From IMG/VR virus record IMGVR_UViG_3300027971_000215, positions 1-24,440 of that record: a stretch of DNA of 24,440 bases. One strand, 5' to 3'. This document shows, one piece after another, positions 2,888 to 18,619 of the stretch. The notes beneath the pieces are model-generated. The model was given only the letters and a program-made list of their open reading frames with translations, searched no databases and had not been told where the DNA came from. The DNA comes from a virus. Positions within the stretch are counted from its first letter, which is position 1. Each line of letters opens with the position of its first letter. The position numbers were made by a program, and so were the translations under genes.

Positions 2888-3016
2888 TTATTTAAGGCTG
2901 GGGGTTTTCCCCGCATCCTCGGCGGCTTGCATCATCTCGTAATTCGGCAGGGCGTTGTTATCTGTGTGCTTAGGACTACAAGAGCAGAGGAAGAGGGCGA
3001 GGAGGAGGAGGGGCAT
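2888..3016 (-). CDS. Very small lipoprotein
   Basis: This is a 42-residue protein. Its N-terminus, MPLLLLALFLCSCSPKH, is a short lipoprotein signal with a lipobox-like LCSC or LFLC, so Cys11 or Cys13 would be lipidated. The remaining 29 residues are polar. The ATG shares a base with the TAA of the fibre gene upstream (TAATG), and an AGGA ribosome site lies 8 bases before it. A small outer-membrane lipoprotein here could be a lysis component or a superinfection-exclusion protein; neither can be proved. The first bases of this gene are duplicated at 3750-3767. Confidence 0.65.
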   Translation of the reverse strand: MPLLLLALFLCSCSPKHTDNNALPNYEMMQAAEDAGKTPSLK

Positions 3017-3019
3017 TAG
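3002..3019. repeat. 18-bp direct repeat, copy 1
   Basis: This segment (plus strand GAGGAGGAGGGGCATTAG) is identical to 3750-3767, at an offset of 748 bp. It covers the stop codon of a fibre gene and the first codons of the small lipoprotein gene. The copies bracket the fibre gene 3016-3741, as expected if that gene was inserted with duplication of the junction. Confidence 0.85.
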
Positions 3020-3741
3020 GTTAATCCTAGCCCTTGGCAAAGTGTTGTTTTTAATAGGTTATGAAGAGCCAGTATTTGTGCCGTTGTTAGTGTAGTGTTA
3101 AAAACTGCGGCAAAAGAACCAACGCTGCCCCATTGTGCACTATTGGCAAGATCGCCGAAAAATGCAGGGCCACCATGACTTGTGCCAGTTGCAAAAGTCC
3201 TTGAGGTGGTTGCCGCAAATGAATTATAGACATTTGCGATTGCTGTATTTGTAATCGCTCCGTTAATAAATCCACTTAAATCTGTATTTGGAGAAAAAAC
3301 AGTAGCAGACGCTCCGCTTCTTCTTTGCCAGAAATGAAAATTATTAGCACCATTGGACACCCTAAAAACTATAGAACTAGTAATTGTAGTGTTATTAAGG
3401 CCAACTGCAAAAATTGTGTGAGAGCCTGTTGGTAGATAATATGAAAATTGCAGACAAGAATTTGCTGGGGAAAATGTAACTCCGTCTGTCCCCCAAGCTG
3501 GACTATTAGCTAGGGTTCCATCATATGACCCCAACCCGCCCAAACTATACGCAGTCGCTCCAGTTCCAGCGTTCTGCGTTGAGCAAAGAGGCCAGCAGAC
3601 CATACTGCTGTAAAGGCCGAGGTCTTTTACGCCTGTAACAAAACGAGAAATCTGTTGCCGTCCAGCTGTGTTAGTCACGCCAGCCGTAGTAAAATAGGCA
3701 GAGGCATCCGCATCGTAAGCTGGCTTAATTAGGATGCTCAT
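3016..3741 (-). CDS. LamG-like tail fibre or receptor-binding protein
   Basis: The 241-residue protein is rich in Ser, Thr, Asn, Gly and aromatic residues. Its pattern is typical of concanavalin/LamG-like beta-sandwich modules on phage fibres: an N-terminal DADASAYFTTAGV, a middle GTLANSPAWGTDGVTFSP, then strands with HTIFAVG and a C-terminal helix (TTAQILALHNLLKTTL). Such domains usually bind host surface glycans. The ATG overlaps the stop of an 8-codon frame (ATGA), so it is probably reached by coupled translation. Together with 3764-4456 it is visibly more AT-rich than the capsid and glycosyltransferase genes, which fits recent exchange. Receptor binding is inferred from fold character and position. 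Confidence 0.6.
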   Translation of the reverse strand: MSILIKPAYDADASAYFTTAGVTNTAGRQQISRFVTGVKDLGLYSSMVCWPLCSTQNAGTGATAYSLGGLGSYDGTLANSPAWGTDGVTFSPANSCLQFSYYLPTGSHTIFAVGLNNTTITSSIVFRVSNGANNFHFWQRRSGASATVFSPNTDLSGFINGAITNTAIANVYNSFAATTSRTFATGTSHGGPAFFGDLANSAQWGSVGSFAAVFNTTLTTAQILALHNLLKTTLCQGLGLT

Positions 3742-3764
3742 GGAGTGATGAGGAGGAGGGGCAT
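3738..3764 (-). other. 8-codon mini-ORF, relic start of the lipoprotein gene
   Basis: A frame of eight codons (MPLLLITP, then TGA) begins at the TAATG of the upstream fibre gene and ends in ATGA at the next fibre gene. Its first five codons match the start of the 42-residue lipoprotein gene. It looks like the leftover beginning of that gene after a fibre cassette was inserted. It may still serve as a coupling bridge for ribosomes between the two fibre genes. Confidence 0.55.
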
Positions 3765-3767
3765 TAG
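3750..3767. repeat. 18-bp direct repeat, copy 2
   Basis: Exact copy of 3002-3019. It lies over the stop codon of fibre gene 3764-4456 and the first codons of the 8-codon relic frame. Identity ends sharply on both sides, with a mismatch at 3749 versus 3001 and at 3768 versus 3020. Confidence 0.85.
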
Positions 3768-4456
3768 TAAAGTGCCCACTTTGAGTTTAAGTAATTTCGT
3801 ACTAGATTTTTTTGTGAGCTTGTTAGGTTTGAATTGTAAACAACGATTTCCGCATACTCTCCATTTGGTGACTGAAATTCCGAAGATATTGTTTTCAAAT
3901 TCCACCCTGTTGTATCGCCGTCAAAAACCTTAAAAACCCCATCAAACAGCTTTAATGCGCTCGGATAAACTGGAACGGTAACAGAAGATCCATTCAAATT
4001 TTCATTTGAAATAAAATCTGACGGATACATATAGTTTCCATTAGAATTACTATGAAACCCAAAGTTGGTTGTAGAGTTTAGAACAACACCGAAGTCTTTG
4101 TAGGTGGTTTGCTTTAAAACGATGAAGAATGTGCCAAGGCTTGTTATTTGATTTACATTCATGAACCTATAATTTCCATCAGACTTAACCGTATTCTTGT
4201 TATTTTTACCAAGAGTTTGTAGAACAAATTGATTTACAGCATTTACCTGTATGGCGTGATTCGCGTTTCCGCTTTGGTCTTCCCACCTTGCTATGGAAGA
4301 GCCATTTGTAGTTACTTTATTACCGCCAGTAGAGGTATCAAATAATCCAATCGTAGCGTCTAGCCAGAGTTGTAGGCCAGCGATGTTGGATGGGGCAAAA
4401 ACTCCACCAAAGAAGCCCCTGCGATTTAGAATTCCGCTGGAAGCAAAGAAGCCCAC
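3764..4456 (-). CDS. LamG-like tail fibre protein
   Basis: This 230-residue protein starts at a GTG (TAGTG junction) preceded by GGAGG at good spacing; an upstream in-frame TTG is less likely. After a short N-terminal segment comes GLQLWLDATIGLFDTSTGG, then SIARWEDQSGNANHAIQ. This signature is seen in LamG/concanavalin-like domains of phage fibre and adhesin proteins, where the sandwich binds carbohydrate. The C-terminus (EYAEIVVYNSNLTSSQKNLVRNYL) is the usual last strand plus helix of such domains. The gene is AT-rich relative to most of the operon. It probably contacts the host surface, alone or with the following fibre protein. Confidence 0.65.
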   Translation of the reverse strand: MGFFASSGILNRRGFFGGVFAPSNIAGLQLWLDATIGLFDTSTGGNKVTTNGSSIARWEDQSGNANHAIQVNAVNQFVLQTLGKNNKNTVKSDGNYRFMNVNQITSLGTFFIVLKQTTYKDFGVVLNSTTNFGFHSNSNGNYMYPSDFISNENLNGSSVTVPVYPSALKLFDGVFKVFDGDTTGWNLKTISSEFQSPNGEYAEIVVYNSNLTSSQKNLVRNYLNSKWALY

Positions 4457-5460
4457 TACGCCTCCAATATGGTGAAGCAAGAAGCTGTTACGCTGGATAA
4501 TAAATTAACCGCACCAGTAGGGATATAACTACCCTCAAAGGTCAGCCCTGCCCCAGAGGAAAGCTGGATGCCTTGGGTGGTGGTGGGTGTAAATCCAATC
4601 CCGACTGTGATTACATTTGAAGCAGTAGTTACATTCTGAATTAAGAGATATTTTCTATTTGAGTTCGTTACGGCAGATGTCGCAAAAGCCGTGTTCGCAG
4701 TAGTGACAGAGCCAAATCTTGTCGTTAGAGAGCCGTTAGATGAGTTGGCGGTGACTGTCCCGCTTATCGCAATGGCCGTCCCACTCGTCACGCCTTGGAT
4801 GGACAGCACATCAATCGAGGGGCTACCCGCCGTCCCCACCTCGGCATAAGTGACGGCTGTGCCAGCGGGGTTAATTAGCCTTGCTGTGACGCTGGTGGCG
4901 AAGGAGGAGATCGATGCGGTGACTGAGCCTATCTGTGCCGTCCCTGCTCCTATTGTTACCGTTCCTGCCCCAATCGTCACCACGCCGATGCGGTTTGTGC
5001 CAGCGGGGAGGGCAGAGCCGATGGTGACTGTGCCAGAGATTTGATTTCTAACTTGAACAAATGCCGAAATTCCTTCTTCTTCTACAACTTCACTGCCCCA
5101 AACAGCAAGCACTTGCGAGTTATTATTGGTGTTTATTACTCCTATGGCTGTTTGAATTGCACTAGTTTGAGCAAAAACCCCTTGAGTACATACTTGTATG
5201 TTTGGAACATTCGCCGTTACCGTGCCAGAGATGGCGGGGAGGGAGCTGACGGTTAAAGAGTTTCCCACAGTGACTGTCCCGGTAATGGCCGCGCCGACGG
5301 TCACAGTAACGTTCTCCAGGGCGGACAGGCTATTGGCATCGAGCGCCACGGTGACGGTGTTCATCACGGTGACGGAGCTGGCCACGGCGCTGTTAATCAC
5401 GGCGCTGGTCAGAGTGACTACGGTGGGTGTTTCGCTAACGGCTAGGTAGATGTCGGCCAT
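4456..5460 (-). CDS. Repetitive beta-rich tail protein
   Basis: The protein has 334 residues, dominated by Val, Thr, Ser, Ala and Gly. Short repeats of the form SGTVT / GTVTVG / VTIGAGTV recur from about residue 45 to 250, suggesting a beta-helix or beta-prism shaft. The last 70 residues (QNVTTASNVITVGIGFTPT, then LSSGAGLTFEGSYIP) look like a globular C-terminal domain of the kind found at the end of phage appendage proteins. The ATG has an AAGGAA ribosome site. It is probably a fibre or tail-tip component carrying or neighbouring the LamG proteins; there is no specific family assignment. Confidence 0.55.
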   Translation of the reverse strand: MADIYLAVSETPTVVTLTSAVINSAVASSVTVMNTVTVALDANSLSALENVTVTVGAAITGTVTVGNSLTVSSLPAISGTVTANVPNIQVCTQGVFAQTSAIQTAIGVINTNNNSQVLAVWGSEVVEEEGISAFVQVRNQISGTVTIGSALPAGTNRIGVVTIGAGTVTIGAGTAQIGSVTASISSFATSVTARLINPAGTAVTYAEVGTAGSPSIDVLSIQGVTSGTAIAISGTVTANSSNGSLTTRFGSVTTANTAFATSAVTNSNRKYLLIQNVTTASNVITVGIGFTPTTTQGIQLSSGAGLTFEGSYIPTGAVNLLSSVTASCFTILEA

Positions 5461-7209: not shown

Positions 7210-9489
7210 CTAGCTGATCCGTGCTTGGATAGTAATGGGAACTTGAGCGAGCACGGTGGTATCTGTCCCGGTCTTTTCCTCTATCTGAAGATAGGCGGAG
7301 GCTGAGCTGTTCCCGGCCAGTAGTGTGGTTACGGATGCGGTGGAGAGATCGATCTGCTTTTTGTAGTAAACAGAGGATGGAGCAGAATCAAGCGTGGCGG
7401 CCGGAGCAGATGTGTAGCCAACGCCTCCTGTGGTGATTGAGATGGTGGTAATAGATCCGTTTTCAATGGTGGCCTCGGCTGCCGCTCCTGTTCCACCTCC
7501 GCCAGTAAGTGTGACGACTGGGGCGACCAGATATCCCAATCCCTTACAGGTAACGGTAAACGCGGAGATTTGACCGCCCAGATCAGGTTTGGTCACCACT
7601 ACTCCGGGGACGCTGGTGTAGCCACGACCAGAATTAACAACGCTAAAGCTCTGGCTAGTCCCGGCTTTTACAAAATTTACGATAGCGGTCGATCCCCCCG
7701 CTGGGGCGGCGGAGACAGCGCAGGAGAATGTGCCGTCAGAATAACCAACTCCCGAGGTGACGACGGCTACAGTCCTGATCCCGTTTCCGCTATTGGGCGC
7801 TGAAATGCTGATCGAGGGAGTGCCCGTGTAGCCGTATCCAGCCGAGACTAAAGACAGTGAAACAGATCCATCACCATTAAGTCCGGCAGATATGACCGCA
7901 GGCGTAGCGCCAGGGGCCGTGGAAAGGTAGTTAAAAGAATCTATGGTTACTTCTGGCGCTGTTTCCCAGTAGCCCGCTCCAGCACATGTAGCGGTGATGC
8001 CGGAAATGGATTTATAGCTGGTCAGACTGACTACGGTGGAGGTGGTAGTAAATCCGCTACCACTGCAAACGACGGTGATGCTGGAAAGTTGTCCAGTATT
8101 TGAAACAGAGACAACGCCAGACGCTGCATCGCCACCGCATGAATCTGAATTAATGGCAAAAGGAATGGCACTGCCGGCGGCGTAGCCCGATCCAGCGCAA
8201 GCGACAGAGGCGGATGAAAACGTCCTGGTAAAAGTTAACGGATAGATTTTGGCTCCGACAGTAGCAAGGGAAACGGATGAGGACGGCGGGCAGGCAAACT
8301 TATCGATTCTAAACAAAAAGGAGTTACTAGTGACGGAAACCAAGGGCCATACTCCCTTTACCCCGAAGCTCTTAAATCCAGTGTAGCTATCTACATAATC
8401 CAAAGCCTCTACATAAATTAGGCTGCCAGCGGCAAGCCCGTGGGCGGTGCTGGTGACTACGGTGGTGCGGCCGGAAATGGATGCGGAGGTGGCGGTCTTG
8501 TAGGCGCCTAAGGTGTAGTCGCTAGGATCGGGAACGACAAAAATATCCGGGCTGTCCGAATAATTACTGCCAGTGCTCTGTACTTGAATAGTAAGCGCCC
8601 CATTAGTTAGCTGAGGGGTAAGCTGGGCGCGGTTAGCCGGGTTTCTAATATTCACATGCCCAGTGAGGACTGCGGATCCGTTACCAATGCTGGCCATGGC
8701 CACTGTGACCGATCCAACTATGGGTGAAACTCCAAGAAGGGTGACGCTCGATGCAAAGCCTCCGCTGACAACCGACGAAGCAAAAGTGGCTATCGTGCCC
8801 AGCTGGTTTGATACTTGCGCAGACCCCGAGTGCCCGCCTGATTCATATCCCGCGGCGGCGGAGTATGTAGCATACAAAGACATAACCTCTGGCCAGTTGT
8901 CGGTTGATTGTTGGGTGTATATGGCCTCGTTCTTTGCCTCGTTTGTTCCATTGACCAGCACGTAAAACGGATCTTTTGAAAAAATATCAGGCTCAGACGC
9001 AAAAACGCAGGGGACGGTAGTAAAGTAATTCCCGCATGTAGGTACCTCTAGGGCGACAAGCTGGTTACTCTTAAGCACGGGCACAACAGACGGCAACTGC
9101 ACTTGGCTAAAGTTTGCGGTGATGGATCCAGTGACAGGACTATTCATGCCCGCCGTGGCCGTAGCTGTAATTGATCCCAGCATGGTGGCCAGCGCAGTGG
9201 CCGTGACTGGGCTAGTGATGCCGACGGTGGCCGTAGCGGAGGCGGACAACGTAACAACAGAAAGGCTGAGTACGGAGGCGACGCTGGCCGATCCTAGCGC
9301 TCCGATGCGTACGTTCACGGCACTGGCGGCGGATGTGTACTGCGCCATGCTTCCTGAAGCTCTTGTGATCAGCTCTAGCTCTAAGGTTGGCTTGTCTCCC
9401 TGGTACAGGCTGGGCGTAGCCGCAATTTGTGTGCTGGAGGATCCCGTGATCAGCTTATTATTGTCGAGGTCTACGTAGAAATGAGGCAT
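7210..9489 (-). CDS. Large tail protein with GxGYTSxP beta repeats
   Basis: At 759 residues this is the largest virion protein of the window. The N-terminal 150 residues are Ala/Ser/Thr/Val-rich with a duplicated element (GITSPVTAT and GMNSPVTGS). From about residue 430 there are eight repeats of the form G-x-G-Y/F-x-x-x-P followed by a beta strand, e.g. GRGYTSVPGVVVTKP and GVGYTSAPAATLDSAP. This repeat type is known from viral structural proteins and builds elongated beta shafts. The C-terminus (SVTTLLAGNSSASAYLQIEE, then VLAQVPITIQA) is a separate domain. It is probably a tail-tip or fibre shaft. There is no catalytic motif. Confidence 0.6.
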   Translation of the reverse strand: MPHFYVDLDNNKLITGSSSTQIAATPSLYQGDKPTLELELITRASGSMAQYTSAASAVNVRIGALGSASVASVLSLSVVTLSASATATVGITSPVTATALATMLGSITATATAGMNSPVTGSITANFSQVQLPSVVPVLKSNQLVALEVPTCGNYFTTVPCVFASEPDIFSKDPFYVLVNGTNEAKNEAIYTQQSTDNWPEVMSLYATYSAAAGYESGGHSGSAQVSNQLGTIATFASSVVSGGFASSVTLLGVSPIVGSVTVAMASIGNGSAVLTGHVNIRNPANRAQLTPQLTNGALTIQVQSTGSNYSDSPDIFVVPDPSDYTLGAYKTATSASISGRTTVVTSTAHGLAAGSLIYVEALDYVDSYTGFKSFGVKGVWPLVSVTSNSFLFRIDKFACPPSSSVSLATVGAKIYPLTFTRTFSSASVACAGSGYAAGSAIPFAINSDSCGGDAASGVVSVSNTGQLSSITVVCSGSGFTTTSTVVSLTSYKSISGITATCAGAGYWETAPEVTIDSFNYLSTAPGATPAVISAGLNGDGSVSLSLVSAGYGYTGTPSISISAPNSGNGIRTVAVVTSGVGYSDGTFSCAVSAAPAGGSTAIVNFVKAGTSQSFSVVNSGRGYTSVPGVVVTKPDLGGQISAFTVTCKGLGYLVAPVVTLTGGGGTGAAAEATIENGSITTISITTGGVGYTSAPAATLDSAPSSVYYKKQIDLSTASVTTLLAGNSSASAYLQIEEKTGTDTTVLAQVPITIQARIS
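7390..8205 (-). repeat. Eight GxGYTSxP-type repeat units
   Basis: Within the 759-residue protein, degenerate units of about 30-40 residues each open with G-S-G-Y, G-A-G-Y, G-R-G-Y, G-L-G-Y or G-V-G-Y. The gcycGTAkCC-type codons recur on the plus strand (for example near 7405, 7530, 7615, 7745, 7830, 7968, 8055 and 8185). Units differ from each other strongly at DNA level, so this is an old protein repeat rather than a recent tandem duplication. Confidence 0.65.
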
Positions 9490-13302: not shown

Positions 13303-13719
13303 TCAGCGTGTGACAAAAAAGAAGGCCGAAACTGTGTCTCCCATGGCTTGCTCGTTTCCAGAGCTTTTTTCGTCAGCTATGTAGGAGCCATAAACAGTCA
13401 TCCCTGAGGTAACCGCTGAACAGATTGCCGAGTTGTTCCTAAGCCTTTCGCAGGCCCAAAGGTAGAAAGCGGAGTGGCTAACAGTAGTTCCTGTTTCTTG
13501 TACGGGGGTAATCACGGTGGCATCGATTCTGATCTTTCTGTCTGCCCCTGGGTTACCATCGGAAATTGGCTCAGCCGATTCCGCATGAATAATTAGAGCT
13601 GGCACCTGTAAATCGTCGATGCGATGCCCTGCCTGAATGTTTAAGCCATAGGGTTTGGACGGGCTGACGGTGGTTAGGTAACTTGTCAGAGCACTCTCAA
13701 AGTCTAGGCGGAGGCTCAT
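13303..13719 (-). CDS. Tail terminator-like protein
   Basis: The 138-residue protein starts with a helix (LRLDFESALTSYLTT) and has strands such as DLQVPALIIHAES and RKIRIDATVITPVQE. A second helix SAFYLWACERLRNN and C-terminal strands (TVSAFFFVTR) complete an alpha/beta layout. That topology and the slot between connector and tail tube match tail terminator proteins (lambda U type), which cap the tail. The ATG is in an ATGA overlap with the upstream connector gene. Moderate confidence, as no sequence comparison was possible. Confidence 0.5.
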   Translation of the reverse strand: MSLRLDFESALTSYLTTVSPSKPYGLNIQAGHRIDDLQVPALIIHAESAEPISDGNPGADRKIRIDATVITPVQETGTTVSHSAFYLWACERLRNNSAICSAVTSGMTVYGSYIADEKSSGNEQAMGDTVSAFFFVTR

Positions 13720-14027
13720 TTTCTGACGTCCTCTGGGGTGGAAAGCATGAGGCTGGTAGTTCCGCTGTCGCTATTGATTCCGGCCACCCGCTTGCGAATC
13801 CCCGCTACTGTGATCACGCTGAGCAGGCTGGGCGTGGTGACGCCAGCGCTAACGTAAACAAATTCGCTTCCTTGGGGATCTATCATTCCCCCGTAACCAA
13901 GCTGGCCTGTCTGCTCGTTGGGACTGTAAACGCCCTGAACGGCTACTCCCGAGATTGTGGCGGTGGTGGGTATGGCGGAGATCATATCGGCCAGCCCAGT
14001 AGTCATGAGAGTTTGGAGTTCGGTCAC
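13716..14027 (-). CDS. Head-tail completion protein candidate
   Basis: The 103-residue protein has one helix at the start (TELQTLMTTGLADMISAIP) and beta strands with IDPQGSEFVYVSAGV. It is similar in layout to small head-tail joining proteins (lambda FII type), which have about 100-120 residues. The start is GTG with AAGGGC upstream. It is the first structural gene after the cargo genes, and its stop overlaps the next gene. It could also be a stopper or adaptor; function is by position. Confidence 0.45.
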   Translation of the reverse strand: MTELQTLMTTGLADMISAIPTTATISGVAVQGVYSPNEQTGQLGYGGMIDPQGSEFVYVSAGVTTPSLLSVITVAGIRKRVAGINSDSGTTSLMLSTPEDVRK

Positions 14028-14083: not shown

Positions 14084-14344
14084 ATGGCCAAGTGGTTTTT
14101 TATTTTTGTTTTAATTTGTAGCGTGGCGCTGGGGGCTGATGCGGTGAGTGAAAAGCGGCTAAGCCTAGACGACGGAAAGTGGTGTCTGAAGGGAAAGCCG
14201 TTTTCTGGGGTGGCTTTTGTAGCGGAGGGCAACTGGCGAGCGGAGATGACTTATCTGGATGGAGTGCTAGACGGACCCGTGACGGTGATCGTAAATAACA
14301 AACTGTTCTCCCAGTTTAGCTACTCCAACGGCGTGAGAAATTAG
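14084..14344 (+). CDS. Secreted MORN-like protein (moron candidate)
   Basis: This is the only gene on the plus strand. The product has 86 residues; residues 1-20 (MAKWFFIFVLICSVALGADA) are a signal peptide with predicted cleavage after ADA. The mature part shows MORN-type units: LDDGKWCLKGKPFSG, then MTYLDGVLDGPVTV and a third weak FSYSNGV. Such repeats occur in secreted or surface proteins. There is no ribosome site before the ATG. It converges on the methyltransferase gene with a 3-bp overlap of stops. Its opposite orientation, own signal peptide and position in a cargo region suggest a gene expressed independently of the late operon, perhaps changing the host envelope. Confidence 0.65.
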   Translation: MAKWFFIFVLICSVALGADAVSEKRLSLDDGKWCLKGKPFSGVAFVAEGNWRAEMTYLDGVLDGPVTVIVNNKLFSQFSYSNGVRN

Positions 14345-14880
14345 GCCGAAAGTTTTCTGGCGTAGACAATAAACACGTCGGTGCAGTCGCCCTGCTGGTC
14401 GATGCGGTAGATGGTCATGGCCTGTCTGTTTATCCAGTCGCATATTTTGCGATGGGTGGCGTTACCGTGTGTCTCGATAGCTACGACCTGAAGGGTAGGC
14501 AGTAAATTTTCTATGGCGGCTAGATGTTCCTCAGCTCCCTCAATATCACTTTTTATGTGAGTGATTGAATTAGAGGTAATCCAGTTATAGATCTGATCTA
14601 AGCTGCTGATCGATGCCTGTATAAAATGATCGCCTAGTTCCTGAGTAAGCAGGGCGATGTCCGATTGATTTTGATCGATCCCCAGGTAAAAGGCAGGGTT
14701 TTGTCCTAGATAAAAATATGGGGTGCCAAGACGATCCGCCCGTAGTGGCTCGTCCCAAAAGGCACAGCCCAGATCTAAGACTCTGCTTTGACTATCCACA
14801 GGCATGTGTGCCCAGTGGATAGATGGGTTTTCATCGCACACCCTTCCGTGTTCAATGGTCATAGCTAAGTGAGGATCCAT
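14341..14880 (-). CDS. FkbM-type SAM-dependent methyltransferase
   Basis: The 179-residue protein has a SAM-binding motif VLDLGCA (34-40), the FkbM signature IKSDIEGAE (109-117) and AIETHG (134-139). FkbM enzymes methylate sugar hydroxyls and other oxygen acceptors and are frequent in glycan clusters. It is somewhat shorter than many members but the core is complete. The ATG at 14880 overlaps the upstream glycosyltransferase by 16 bp; an internal ATG at 14862 is an alternative start. The context suggests it caps or modifies a glycan made by the two transferases upstream. Confidence 0.75.
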   Translation of the reverse strand: MDPHLAMTIEHGRVCDENPSIHWAHMPVDSQSRVLDLGCAFWDEPLRADRLGTPYFYLGQNPAFYLGIDQNQSDIALLTQELGDHFIQASISSLDQIYNWITSNSITHIKSDIEGAEEHLAAIENLLPTLQVVAIETHGNATHRKICDWINRQAMTIYRIDQQGDCTDVFIVYARKLSA

Positions 14881-15539
14881 TTTGTTTTTTTATCTAATTC
14901 TGTGGCCACGCGGGTGGCGTGATGATTCTCCTGGTGAAACTCTGGGCTAGGACAAAAGGCACCGCGAGTGGCGCCGATATTCTGGATGCGACTTACCCTG
15001 GGGAAGATCTCCCCGTTGCCCATGCTCTCGCGTACGCTCTGGACGCCACCATCCCAAAAAGAGCTGTCCCAGTTAGGTAACAGATATTTTTCCCATGCGC
15101 TTTTCCACGTAGCCCAGCCCCAAGGGGTAAACCAGTGGCGGAATCCTGCAACGCTGGGATCTGCATCGGCTCCGTGTTGGTTGTAGGCGGAAATGGTGAG
15201 CGTTTGCTTTGGGGCGTGTGTCCGGCCCCACTCCATCCATCGCAAAAAGTCTGGGCTGGGCACGGTATCGTCCTCGAGGTGTATGTGGTAATCGCTAACC
15301 CGAAAGCCCAGCGCCATGCAGTAGCGGATCATGGCGCCGCATCCTAGACGATCGAGCATGACCATGGCCTGCACTCCCTGCCCTTTACAAAATTCTGCAA
15401 TCTCTGGAGTTTTATCTGATGGATCGAGAACGACGACGACGTCGTACTCACTAATCCCCTCGCACTTGGCCAGTGCTTTTAGGGTGGTGGCAAAGTAGTC
15501 CGGCCTGTTGTAGCCAGAAAGTGTGATGGTCTTGTTCAT
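14865..15539 (-). CDS. Glycosyltransferase (GT-A fold)
   Basis: The 224-residue protein begins ITLSGYNRPDYFATTLKAL, the start of a GT-A nucleotide-sugar domain, and has the metal-binding acidic motif LEDD (88-91). The later block HWFTPWGWATWKSAW (135-149) and SRIQNIG (183-189) recur in a group of phage and bacterial glycosyltransferases. The donor sugar cannot be read. The ATG overlaps the stop of the two-domain transferase (ATGA), so both should be made together. No membrane segment, so it is cytoplasmic and acts on a soluble or virion-protein acceptor, or on a lipid-linked one through partners. Confidence 0.8.
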   Translation of the reverse strand: MNKTITLSGYNRPDYFATTLKALAKCEGISEYDVVVVLDPSDKTPEIAEFCKGQGVQAMVMLDRLGCGAMIRYCMALGFRVSDYHIHLEDDTVPSPDFLRWMEWGRTHAPKQTLTISAYNQHGADADPSVAGFRHWFTPWGWATWKSAWEKYLLPNWDSSFWDGGVQSVRESMGNGEIFPRVSRIQNIGATRGAFCPSPEFHQENHHATRVATELDKKTKWILT

Positions 15540-17677
15540 CCCTTGAGCAAGGCGTACGCCGCCAGATTGCCCCCGGTGGCTTTATTATTTTGCAGGGCAT
15601 CGGCGCCCAACCCTTCTGGACGGATGCGGATGCCGCCGGAGCGCGAAAAGTCCGGCGTGTTGCAAACAAGTGTTTTGATTCCGTTTTTTTGTAGCGCCTT
15701 ACTCATAACAAAATCGTCCGCAAGGAAGTGGGCACGGCCGACCGCGTCGAGGTTAGCAAACTCCTTGGGACTCATCGCAGGCCAGAGATCTGCGCTGGGC
15801 ATATCCGAGCGCCGACAGATGACGCCAGCAAAGCCCTCGAGGATCTCGGCGTGGCCGAGGTGGTCGGGTGCGATGGCGTAGCCCGTGGAGCCTGTCATAA
15901 AAAAGCCACAGATCCCTAGCGCCGCTTTTTGCGTTTTGTTTTGTTCGTCGGCGAGGACCTGCAACATCGTGGGACCGTAGAGGATATCGTCATCGCACCA
16001 GACGATCTGGGCGGTGGGATCCTGCTCGGCCGCCATCGCACCGATAAACTTGGTGGCGGGGCCGTGGTCTAGGGTTCGGTTAATTTCTAATTTACCAGAA
16101 TCCGCTAGAGCTAAGAGCTCGGCGGGGATATCCCCAAAGCGTTCGCCTGTGCGGGCGAGTTTTTCTGGTACGGAAAGGATGATGCGATCGGCTGGGCGTG
16201 ACTGTGCCAAGAGACTCTGGATGGTAGGCAGGATCTTTCCAATCCGCGTGGGGGTTGTGGTAAGTCCGACGACTATTTTGCCTGGGCGATCTATAGGATC
16301 GGGTAGGCGGACGGCCGCGGCTGGGATGGTGCCCTGGCTAATAAGATCTACATCCCAGCGCAGTGGTGGGCAGGCGGTGTCCTTATCACATTTTACAAAG
16401 AGCAGGATCCGGCCGAGAGCTGCGGCGGTGGCCTCTTCTGCATCCTTAACGATGTGGATCCGTTTGCCCGCGATCTCAGTGCCGGGATCGGTAATAAAGA
16501 GGTACTGGATGGCGGCCGGATTGTCCGACGTATCCATAAAGAATTTCTGTAGGCGGAAAGCGTCTTGGAATGGGCCGTTGAACACGATGGTGATTTGGCC
16601 CCAGTTCCCGCGGAAGTTTTCCCGTAGGCAACGATCCGCATCCGCGGTCTGGCCGACGGCTCGCAGGCACTGCTCGATGAGTAGCTTGGGTAGGTGGCCG
16701 TACCACTTGGCGTCCAGATTCCAGATAACGCCTGGGGGACGCGGTAACGTCTCGACCATATTGAGCAGGCGGACGGCTTCGGAGAAGTTACCCTCGTCGA
16801 TGAGAAGTGTGGCGAGGTGGCCGTAGGCTTCGCGACGGGTGGGGCAACGGGCGATGCCCATGCCGAGGTACTTGCGCTTTTTAACGTGATCCGCGCACAT
16901 GACGCCAGCCATGCAGAAAAGCTGGTAGCGTTCCGTCTCGCCTAGATCTGGATGCTCAAGGCCGAGGAGTGTGGGGCCGATGCTCTCTTGATAAAGGCCG
17001 CGCAGATATCCCTCTTGGGCTAAGTAATAAAGATTCATCCCGGTATGTTGTAAGAGGGTGCCGAGGATCCGTTTGTTGCGATCGCTAGAATTTTTCTTAC
17101 AGGTGTTAGGTGCGTGAATGACGACGAGGTGATCGGCTAGGCCGACGCCCATGCCAGGGACGGGTTTGACTCGTTCATGGACGGCTCGTTCCCAGATGGC
17201 TGGCAGAGTGCCGTCGGGCTGGCGCCGAAAGATACGTTCCCGGCGGTTATCCCGCATCCCGCTATTCTGGACGTCGTACCGGGTGACTAAAATTTCCCAG
17301 CCTTCTTTGGCTTGTTCACGGACGAGGACGGCGTCGCGGTGTAGTTTAGCCTGGCCGGGATCCAGCAGGTCGTCCGCATCGAACCAGACGACGTACTTCC
17401 CTGTGGCTAGGTTGAAGGCTTTGTTTCTGGCGGCGGCGAAATTGTCGATATGAGGCCAGTCAGCGTGCTCGGGTGCGTTCTGGTACTCGCCCCAGACTAA
17501 AGCCTCGCCAGCGGCCTCCTGAGCGCAAATACGCACACTCTGCGCATCATTTTTACCACAAGCGGAGACGACGACGACTTCGTCCCATAGACCTGCACAG
17601 GACTTAATTAAACGGGCGACGAGTTCCCCTTCGTTGGGGCCGACGATTAAAGCTAAAGAAATAAGGGGGGTATTCAT
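15536..17677 (-). CDS. Two-domain glycosyltransferase
   Basis: The protein has 713 residues from the ATG at 17677; the frame is open upstream but those codons lie over the capsid-distal hairpin. The N-terminal GT2-like domain begins PLISLALIVGPNEGELVARL and has FDADD at 99-103. A middle part (about 210-350) has TPR-like helices (EAYGHLATLLIDEGNFSEA). The C-terminal domain starts near IVVGLTTTPTRIGKILPTI and has WCDDD near 560-564, a second acidic donor-binding motif, with a later FLADDFVMSKAL. It may add two different sugars. It is the first gene after the capsid hairpin and is coupled to the next transferase by ATGA. Acceptor unknown. Confidence 0.8.
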   Translation of the reverse strand: MNTPLISLALIVGPNEGELVARLIKSCAGLWDEVVVVSACGKNDAQSVRICAQEAAGEALVWGEYQNAPEHADWPHIDNFAAARNKAFNLATGKYVVWFDADDLLDPGQAKLHRDAVLVREQAKEGWEILVTRYDVQNSGMRDNRRERIFRRQPDGTLPAIWERAVHERVKPVPGMGVGLADHLVVIHAPNTCKKNSSDRNKRILGTLLQHTGMNLYYLAQEGYLRGLYQESIGPTLLGLEHPDLGETERYQLFCMAGVMCADHVKKRKYLGMGIARCPTRREAYGHLATLLIDEGNFSEAVRLLNMVETLPRPPGVIWNLDAKWYGHLPKLLIEQCLRAVGQTADADRCLRENFRGNWGQITIVFNGPFQDAFRLQKFFMDTSDNPAAIQYLFITDPGTEIAGKRIHIVKDAEEATAAALGRILLFVKCDKDTACPPLRWDVDLISQGTIPAAAVRLPDPIDRPGKIVVGLTTTPTRIGKILPTIQSLLAQSRPADRIILSVPEKLARTGERFGDIPAELLALADSGKLEINRTLDHGPATKFIGAMAAEQDPTAQIVWCDDDILYGPTMLQVLADEQNKTQKAALGICGFFMTGSTGYAIAPDHLGHAEILEGFAGVICRRSDMPSADLWPAMSPKEFANLDAVGRAHFLADDFVMSKALQKNGIKTLVCNTPDFSRSGGIRIRPEGLGADALQNNKATGGNLAAYALLKG

Positions 17678-17695
17678 ATTTTTTGAGTTGGGAAA

Positions 17696-17723
17696 GCCCA
17701 GCGCACCCCCCGATGCGCTGGGC
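17696..17723 (-). terminator. Hairpin after the major capsid gene
   Basis: A perfect 10-bp inverted repeat (GCCCAGCGCA / TGCGCTGGGC) with an 8-base loop starts about 20 bases after the capsid stop codon. On the minus strand it is followed by TTTCCC rather than a long U tract, so it may only partly terminate. Capsid genes are often followed by such structures, which protect the abundant capsid mRNA and lower expression of the genes behind it, here the glycosyltransferases. Confidence 0.6.
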
Positions 17724-17743
17724 AACCCAGATGAATCTGTGAC

Positions 17744-18619
17744 TTAGACCAACCGAACGAGCGAGGCTGTCGATCCACGTCCGCATCCGAAGAGCAAGAT
17801 GTAGGACCGATTACGCGTTCCGAGCGTAGGATTGTAGAACTCGCGCATCTGCAGGCTGAGGCCGCTGACGGGTTCCGTTACGTTTTCGATGGAGCCGGGG
17901 TAGTCCGAAGGAACTTCGGGCAGACGCGCCGCCACCAGGAGCGCTTCCTGTTGAGCCGCGAAGCCTTTGCTGATCGCGGAAGGGAGCGAAGGGTAGCTGA
18001 ACACTTCGATGCCGTTTACGATTCCAACTGATCCAGTGCGAACCGTATCACCTTGGATCTGGGCGTTAGCCACAATCGATGTGTCGTTGAGCAGGCTGGC
18101 TTTGTTATTCGGAGACACGATTGCGTAGCGGCTGCCGCTAGGCACTTTGTTTCCGTCGAGCACCACACCCATCGAAACGATGGAGCGGTAGCTGAGAACG
18201 TCGGCCGCCACGGTCATTGTGGAGGTATAGGACGCTGCGCTGATTGTGCCGAGCAAGGTGTCCACCATGGATTTTCCGATCGCGTGTGCGGCGGAAGCGG
18301 CGAAACGCTCAATCAAGTTGATCGAGGAGCTGGCTGCTTCGGAATCATTGATCGCCACAGTGCTGTGGATCAAGTTATCCAGCGACACGATGCAATCGGT
18401 CTGCGTGCGGTCTCCCGCGACGTATCCGTTTGCAGTGCTGTAGGCCACCGCGGTTGCCGCGGTAATCAGGTGGGTGGTGACGATATCGCCCTTACGAGCG
18501 GAAGCGTCGGAGAAGTCCGCGTAGGCGGACGTGAGGAAAGGGAATTGCTCCACCAAGAGGCTGAGCGCCCGTTGGGAAACTAACTTTCCGTTGCTGACTG
18601 ATGCGAGTGTGTTTGCCAT
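17744..18619 (-). CDS. Major capsid protein
   Basis: The 291-residue protein shows the pattern of HK97-fold coat proteins of the P22/gp5-like group. It has an N-terminal MANTLASVSNGKLVSQRAL helix, then ARKGDIVTTHLITAATAV, a long central helix (SSSINLIERFAASAAHAIG) and SGSRYAIVSPNNKASLLND in the A domain. It forms the icosahedral shell. It lies directly behind the protease-scaffold gene with an AAGGA ribosome site in the 21-bp spacer, and a stem-loop follows its stop. The G+C content and codon use look even and conservative. A long antisense frame over it is a shadow. Confidence 0.85.
   Translation of the reverse strand: MANTLASVSNGKLVSQRALSLLVEQFPFLTSAYADFSDASARKGDIVTTHLITAATAVAYSTANGYVAGDRTQTDCIVSLDNLIHSTVAINDSEAASSSINLIERFAASAAHAIGKSMVDTLLGTISAASYTSTMTVAADVLSYRSIVSMGVVLDGNKVPSGSRYAIVSPNNKASLLNDTSIVANAQIQGDTVRTGSVGIVNGIEVFSYPSLPSAISKGFAAQQEALLVAARLPEVPSDYPGSIENVTEPVSGLSLQMREFYNPTLGTRNRSYILLFGCGRGSTASLVRLV

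Follow-up and report, generated by a model that had tools for sequence, protein, structure and literature searches.

Phage virions are usually regarded as particles of bare protein. PMC12619734 and PMC11256854 describe glycans on the capsid and tail-tube proteins of mycobacteriophages, and cite Freeman et al. 2023 for glycosylation of the Che8 and Rita virions. In these phages, as in the locus reported here, phage-encoded glycosyltransferases (GTs) are believed to decorate capsid and tail proteins. The locus lies in the IMG/VR virus record IMGVR_UViG_3300027971_000215, of which the whole 24,440-base stretch, itself a fragment, was analysed (hereafter the window). Behind its major capsid protein (MCP) gene stand a lead glycosyltransferase gene, GTa, a second one, GTb, and a putative methyltransferase gene, MTf (Table 1). 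Judging from the sequences of these genes, the module is probably a virion-glycosylation cassette. It differs from the mycobacteriophage systems in that the GT genes of the relative Maravista are found near the right genome end (PMC11256854), whereas here a GT gene is locked behind the MCP gene throughout a lineage and is followed by a swappable set of genes; GTa also had no sequence match in the phage collection. Virion glycosylation as such is known from mycobacteriophages, and the new part is an obligatory, capsid-linked and hypervariable cassette.

GTa and its closest enzyme relatives

The start of GTa that is conserved among relatives is the ATG at 17677, the TTG start at 17725 in the open reading frame (ORF) list being too long. 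The gene had been predicted to encode one glycosyltransferase with two domains, and this description holds. The N-terminal GT2 catalytic domain (residues ~1-210) has a GT-A fold and matched PF00535 above the Pfam cut-off (E 1.9e-9), and the acidic residues of its metal motif (D100, D102 and D103) are invariant in the alignment of relatives. It is followed by tetratricopeptide repeats (TPR, residues 211-355), a short middle region and a second GT-A-like domain (~479-713). The repeats were matched by consensus TPR proteins at residues 215-327 in profile searches and appear as helical pairs in the AlphaFold2 model, whose predicted local distance difference test (pLDDT) score is 84. The C-terminal domain showed a weak profile similarity to heparosan synthase/KfiA. 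The middle stretch aligns with part of the C-terminal region of GTa from a deeper clade of relatives, which bears a GSDDW motif; by eye, and with no family model confirming it, this stretch could be what is left of an earlier second GT domain.

In profile searches the closest natural solved sequence relative of GTa was the N-acetylglucosamine (GlcNAc) transferase domain of the Listeria protein GmaR (E 6e-13). GmaR transfers GlcNAc to flagellin, and a role in recognising the protein substrate has been proposed for its TPR domain (PMC9638930). Both proteins have a GT2 domain followed by TPR repeats, but GmaR then runs into an antirepressor domain while GTa runs into a second GT domain. A structure-based search, proposed in the original prediction as a check, placed SunS and ThuS on top (Foldseek with the GTa model, E 5e-14), with a likeness covering ~370 residues. 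These two glycocin S-glycosyltransferases glycosylate polypeptides, as their PDB titles also state; they differ from GTa in that they share only ~15% identity with it, act on small secreted peptides and are devoid of a C-terminal GT domain. The SunS equivalog model TIGR04195 has a cut-off of 350 bits, against which GTa scored 12.2 bits and GTa of the deeper clade 21.7 bits. GTa thus appears to work like SunS without being a member of that equivalog, and both sequence and predicted structure suggest that it is probably a polypeptide glycosyltransferase.

Linkage of GTa to the capsid gene

IMG/VR was searched with GTa and with MCP, giving 79 and 46 loci respectively. Relatives were found through peptide patterns, up to 80 per scan, and the counts given here are lower bounds. 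The position of GTa relative to MCP was then mapped by tblastn. Throughout the main clade, GTa lies ~70 nucleotides (nt) behind MCP. Both clades together yielded 154 distinct MCP/GTa pairs once identical pairs had been removed, with 11 further contigs ending too soon, and no related MCP with room behind it was without GTa. The gene is intact: none of 129 full-length homologues carries an internal stop. In the deeper clade (MCP 47%, GTa 32% identity) the order is MCP, hc1, GTa, cargo, hc2, where hc1 and hc2 are head-tail genes and cargo denotes the genes that follow GTa; a search with the MCP of this clade found GTa in 74/74 loci with room. The order MCP-hc1-GTa, as in the deeper-clade locus L073, against MCP-GTa-hc1 in the window indicates a rearrangement. 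The survey of related phages that had been proposed found GTa behind the capsid gene, directly or after hc1, in every relative with room.

Outside these two clades the picture is different. Among more distant viral MCPs (31-36% identical), GTa was found in none of the 49 loci with room. Since GTa is present in all related loci and absent from distant MCPs, the module marks one lineage, within which no loss was seen. GTa is a conserved gene of this lineage and not cargo, and only the genes after it vary. An alignment of GTa had no relative in 84,980 bacterial and archaeal genomes, and cultured phages gave none by DNA or protein. A TerL search of the same genomes returned one short phage-like contig, 75% identical to the window TerL, in a Verrucomicrobia metagenome-assembled genome (MAG). 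This contig (Verrucomicrobia bacterium UBA3063, 3359 bases) is the sole host hint from genome contigs and may be a binned phage; the MAG itself contained no GTa. A related MCP was present in 23 of the 388 genomes of the same phylum, and in the 17 Verrucomicrobiota prophage MCP regions examined the slot contained neither GTa, GTb or MTf nor any known cargo. The nearest relatives infect Verrucomicrobiota bacteria, which are likely to be the hosts here too. In the cultured Verrucomicrobia phage P8625 the head genes follow the same general order and the MCP is distantly related (27%), but no annotated glycosyltransferase lies behind it.

A similar arrangement was located with a deeper-clade GTa query in ctSlx955 (MW202743.1, 5028-10679), an uncultured SU10-type podovirus. 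Here, the MCP gene is followed by one small gene, a GT2-TPR-GT1 fusion and more GT genes; beyond these further annotated GT genes and a gene of 598 amino acids (aa) there is a methyltransferase. Its MCP and portal are, however, of SU10 type, with no similarity to the window MCP, and its C-terminal GT domain belongs to group 1 and not to the GT-A type. By sequence comparison, ctSlx955 appears to be an independent case of the same design behind an unrelated MCP.

Exchangeable genes and flanking elements

GTb had been predicted to be a glycosyltransferase, which its match to PF03071 (GNT-I, GT13) bears out (26.2 bits for a cut-off of 25.4; a relative in locus L013 reached 29.2). It also matched POMGNT1 (profile E 5e-10) and MGAT1 over the catalytic core, including the EDD region, and the EDD motif is invariant among relatives. 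POMGNT1 and MGAT1 extend glycoprotein glycans; unlike them, GTb is soluble and much shorter. Its AlphaFold model is poor in the C-terminal half (pLDDT 65) and its Foldseek ranking was taken as supportive only. A relative (37%) was seen at L209:6001-6660, in a stretch without this MCP or GTa. The third gene, MTf, had been named an FkbM methyltransferase. It carries an IKSDIEGAE motif and matched the phrog_8156 methyltransferase (E 0.006), but the FkbM cut-offs were not reached (TIGR01444, E 0.035, 14.6 against 37.7 bits; PF05050, E 0.2, 12.2 against 22.7 bits) and its profile gave chance-like matches only in the PDB. MTf has eight viral relatives, and those with GTa in view sit in this slot, which in other relatives is occupied by genuine FkbM genes (families C9 and C17). 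We tentatively assign MTf as FkbM-like. GTa and GTb overlap by 4 nt (ATGA). The first ATG of MTf (14880) overlaps GTb by 16 nt, and the start common to most relatives (ATG 14862) lies 2 nt past the GTb stop; the predicted coupling of the enzymes is supported.

Cargo was tallied for 151 loci in which both borders could be seen, a figure that counts overlapping fetches of the same contig. The interval from GTa to the following head gene was occupied in all of them, in 26 architectures as called; some of the differences are ORF-calling noise. Nearly all recognised genes relate to sugar or methyl transfer: GNT-I, Methyltransf_24, FkbM, Methyltransf_23, GT7 fused to an NAD-epimerase, GT34, GT32, GT47, nucleotide-diphospho-sugar transferase, DUF5672, radical SAM, transketolase halves and epimerase. 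Even close relatives of the window differ, L002 keeping MTf and L003, L004 and L009 carrying Methyltransf_24 in its place. A heptosyltransferase assignment for cargo families C1 and C6 was unsupported above threshold. The cargo at L139:8956-10661, at L185:7242-7760 and in about 35 deeper-clade loci includes a radical SAM protein and split transketolase/E1-like halves (C2, C3 and C4), which possibly serve the virus-encoded synthesis of an unusual sugar.

Mosaicism extends into GTa itself, whose C-terminal domain is exchanged separately: between the L021 and L032 proteins, identity is 55% through residue 478 and 93% beyond it. Identities of the N-terminal domain, the TPR repeats and the middle region track those of MCP and portal (r 0.65-0.73), whereas those of the C-terminal domain do not (0.32-0.39). 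Picking the acceptor by identity correlation was tried and dropped, MCP, portal and hc1 being indistinguishable.

With few exceptions, the genes of the window are encoded on the minus strand. They run from terS and terL (GpA type) through a gpW-like gene, the lambda-family portal, a gene of 171 aa and the maturation protease to MCP and the module, after which come the head-tail and tail genes, the tape measure gene and the endolysin. The predicted placement of the module between MCP and the head-tail completion genes was thus borne out in order and coordinates. According to the original prediction this slot holds structural genes only in lambda-like phages; here it is filled in every locus with two borders, in both GTa clades. 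By eye, hc1 looks homologous to L073:9687-9986, a gene whose match to PF05354 (Phage_attach, E 0.0016) is below cut-off; hc2 matched no family model. In the tail region, the genes at 7210-9489 and 4456-5460 (minus strand) encode Ser/Thr-rich proteins (26-28%; 759 aa and 334 aa), possible alternative acceptors. Near its end, two proteins encoded at 3016-3741 and 3764-4480 (minus strand) are lectin/LamG-like by eye, and the tail region of P8625 has an annotated concanavalin-like protein.

Table 1. Coordinates of the module, its borders and accompanying elements in the window
Feature	Position	Strand	Basis or comment
MCP (major capsid protein)	17744..18619	-	phrog_283 major head protein, E 7.6e-22; anchor gene of the slot
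Stem-loop in the MCP-GTa gap	17696..17723	-	10-bp stem, loop TCGGGGGG; present across the clade
GTa, lead glycosyltransferase, 713 aa	15536..17677	-	GT2, TPR, short middle region, swappable C-terminal GT-A-like domain
GTb, GNT-I/POMGNT1-like glycosyltransferase, 224 aa	14865..15539	-	PF03071, POMGNT1 profile match, invariant EDD
MTf, probable FkbM-like S-adenosylmethionine (SAM) methyltransferase, swappable third gene	14341..14862 (or 14880)	-	
Small ORF, 86 aa, hydrophobic N-terminus	14084..14344	+	Opposite to the operon
hc1, probable head-tail joining protein, right border of the slot	13716..14027	-	Position; likeness to L073:9687-9986
hc2, next head-tail completion gene	13303..13719	-	Position and conservation across relatives

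The stem-loop between MCP and GTa is well conserved, with 100% of cells paired, double-sided changes in 9/10 pairs, a covariation of 0.69 compared to 0.21 in shuffles and an energy of -32.4 kcal/mol (z -5.3). It belongs to no Rfam family, and the hairpin found after MCP in the deeper clade is a different one. The loop of the element in the main clade, TCGGGGG, is invariant, which is uncommon in simple terminators, and the stem-loop is followed by just three T. Terminators behind capsid genes set the ratio of capsid to downstream products in other phages. The element may be terminator- or attenuator-like or serve RNA processing, and may set the capsid:enzyme ratio. At the other end of the module, the small plus-strand ORF had been included as a secreted MORN-like gene. 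Its hydrophobic N-terminus fits a secreted protein, but neither the MORN label nor its membership of the module found support: it had no Pfam match even at E 5 and lies on the opposite strand. Relatives were found only in L003, L004 and L009, three contigs from one sample (90-98%). It looks like a recent moron-like insertion and is probably outside the glycan pathway.

Acceptor, alternative roles and implications

As to timing, acceptor, order of sugars and benefit, we infer the following scheme. GTa would be expressed late, as its place in the operon directly after the capsid gene suggests. Its TPR repeats would recognise a phage structural protein, to which the N-terminal GT2 domain would attach the first sugar; the C-terminal domain would probably add the next one and GTb a further one, and MTf, or another enzyme in that slot, would cap or alter the glycan. 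Because GTa is locked to MCP, the best candidate for the acceptor is the capsid protein, and after it another head or tail protein encoded nearby. Each phage strain would obtain a surface glycan of its own through exchange of the C-terminal domain and of the genes downstream. A glycan pathway co-located with the capsid gene, as in the original prediction, is supported, and the decoration of virion proteins suggested there is probable. More tentatively, and as a possible rather than a probable reading, we propose a lineage-wide, obligatory capsid-glycosylation locus whose recombination-prone tail end produces strain-specific virion glycotypes, in a design that arose independently behind an unrelated capsid. 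With its swappable glycotypes, such a locus might, with the same reserve, be to phages what a serotype locus is to bacteria.

Several points weigh against a cassette directed at the capsid. Gene adjacency is no proof of an acceptor, and hc1 and tail proteins remain candidates; MCP does not stand out in the identity correlations, in which hc1 tracks the N-terminal domain at least as well. GT2-TPR enzymes also occur away from MCP: PaBG and Dickeya phage AD1, the latter with gp145, have such genes near their head genes, and in ctf1B273 a related gene is placed between terL and portal. The likeness to SunS and ThuS ends after the first ~370 residues, at ~15% identity, and the hairpin could lower GTa expression relative to the capsid. 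A tail or fibre protein glycosylated for host range or adhesion would be a variant of the same cassette. The Ser/Thr content of the two tail-region proteins is in line with such an acceptor, as are the tail-tube glycans reported for mycobacteriophages in PMC12619734, but the lock to MCP, with GTa within ~70 nt of it in the main clade and after MCP and hc1 in the deeper one, makes this variant rather doubtful.

The enzymes might instead remodel a host surface glycan late in infection, blocking the adsorption of rivals or the re-binding of progeny to debris. Serotype-conversion glycosyltransferases of phages are well known, the cargo includes sugar-nucleotide epimerases and GT families that are also used for polysaccharides, and the C-terminal domain of GTa weakly resembles heparosan synthase/KfiA. 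This role, which the original prediction had offered as an alternative for the exclusion of rivals, is nevertheless unlikely, because hydrophobic membrane segments are absent from GTa, GTb and MTf (no 19-residue Kyte-Doolittle window above 1.35) and the cargo representatives that were searched included no recognisable Gtr-type flippase or polymerase. The module is thus not of the Gtr type, which combines a membrane-embedded GT with a flippase. The host-surface role is further weakened by the location inside a late structural operon, by best GTa matches that are polypeptide GTs and by the co-variation of the GTa N-terminal and TPR region with structural genes. Hypermodification of phage DNA against restriction is far less probable still. 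Virus GTs that modify DNA are cited in PMC12619734, and methyltransferases and radical SAM genes occur among the cargo, but GTa and GTb resemble protein and glycoprotein glycosyltransferases, their location is late and structural, and the window, a fragment that was not searched exhaustively, held no recognised base-modification gene. Finally, a bacterial segment wrongly assembled into the phage, or contamination, is practically refuted, since the same junction recurs in 154 distinct MCP/GTa pairs from many metagenomes and the genome collection holds no bacterial relative of GTa.

If virion glycosylation is indeed the function of the module, surface sugars would be a standing part of virion biology in this group of aquatic phages. 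A GT2-TPR gene directly behind MCP would then serve as a genomic signature to predict glycosylated phages, and these loci would provide an enzyme set that may modify capsid proteins.

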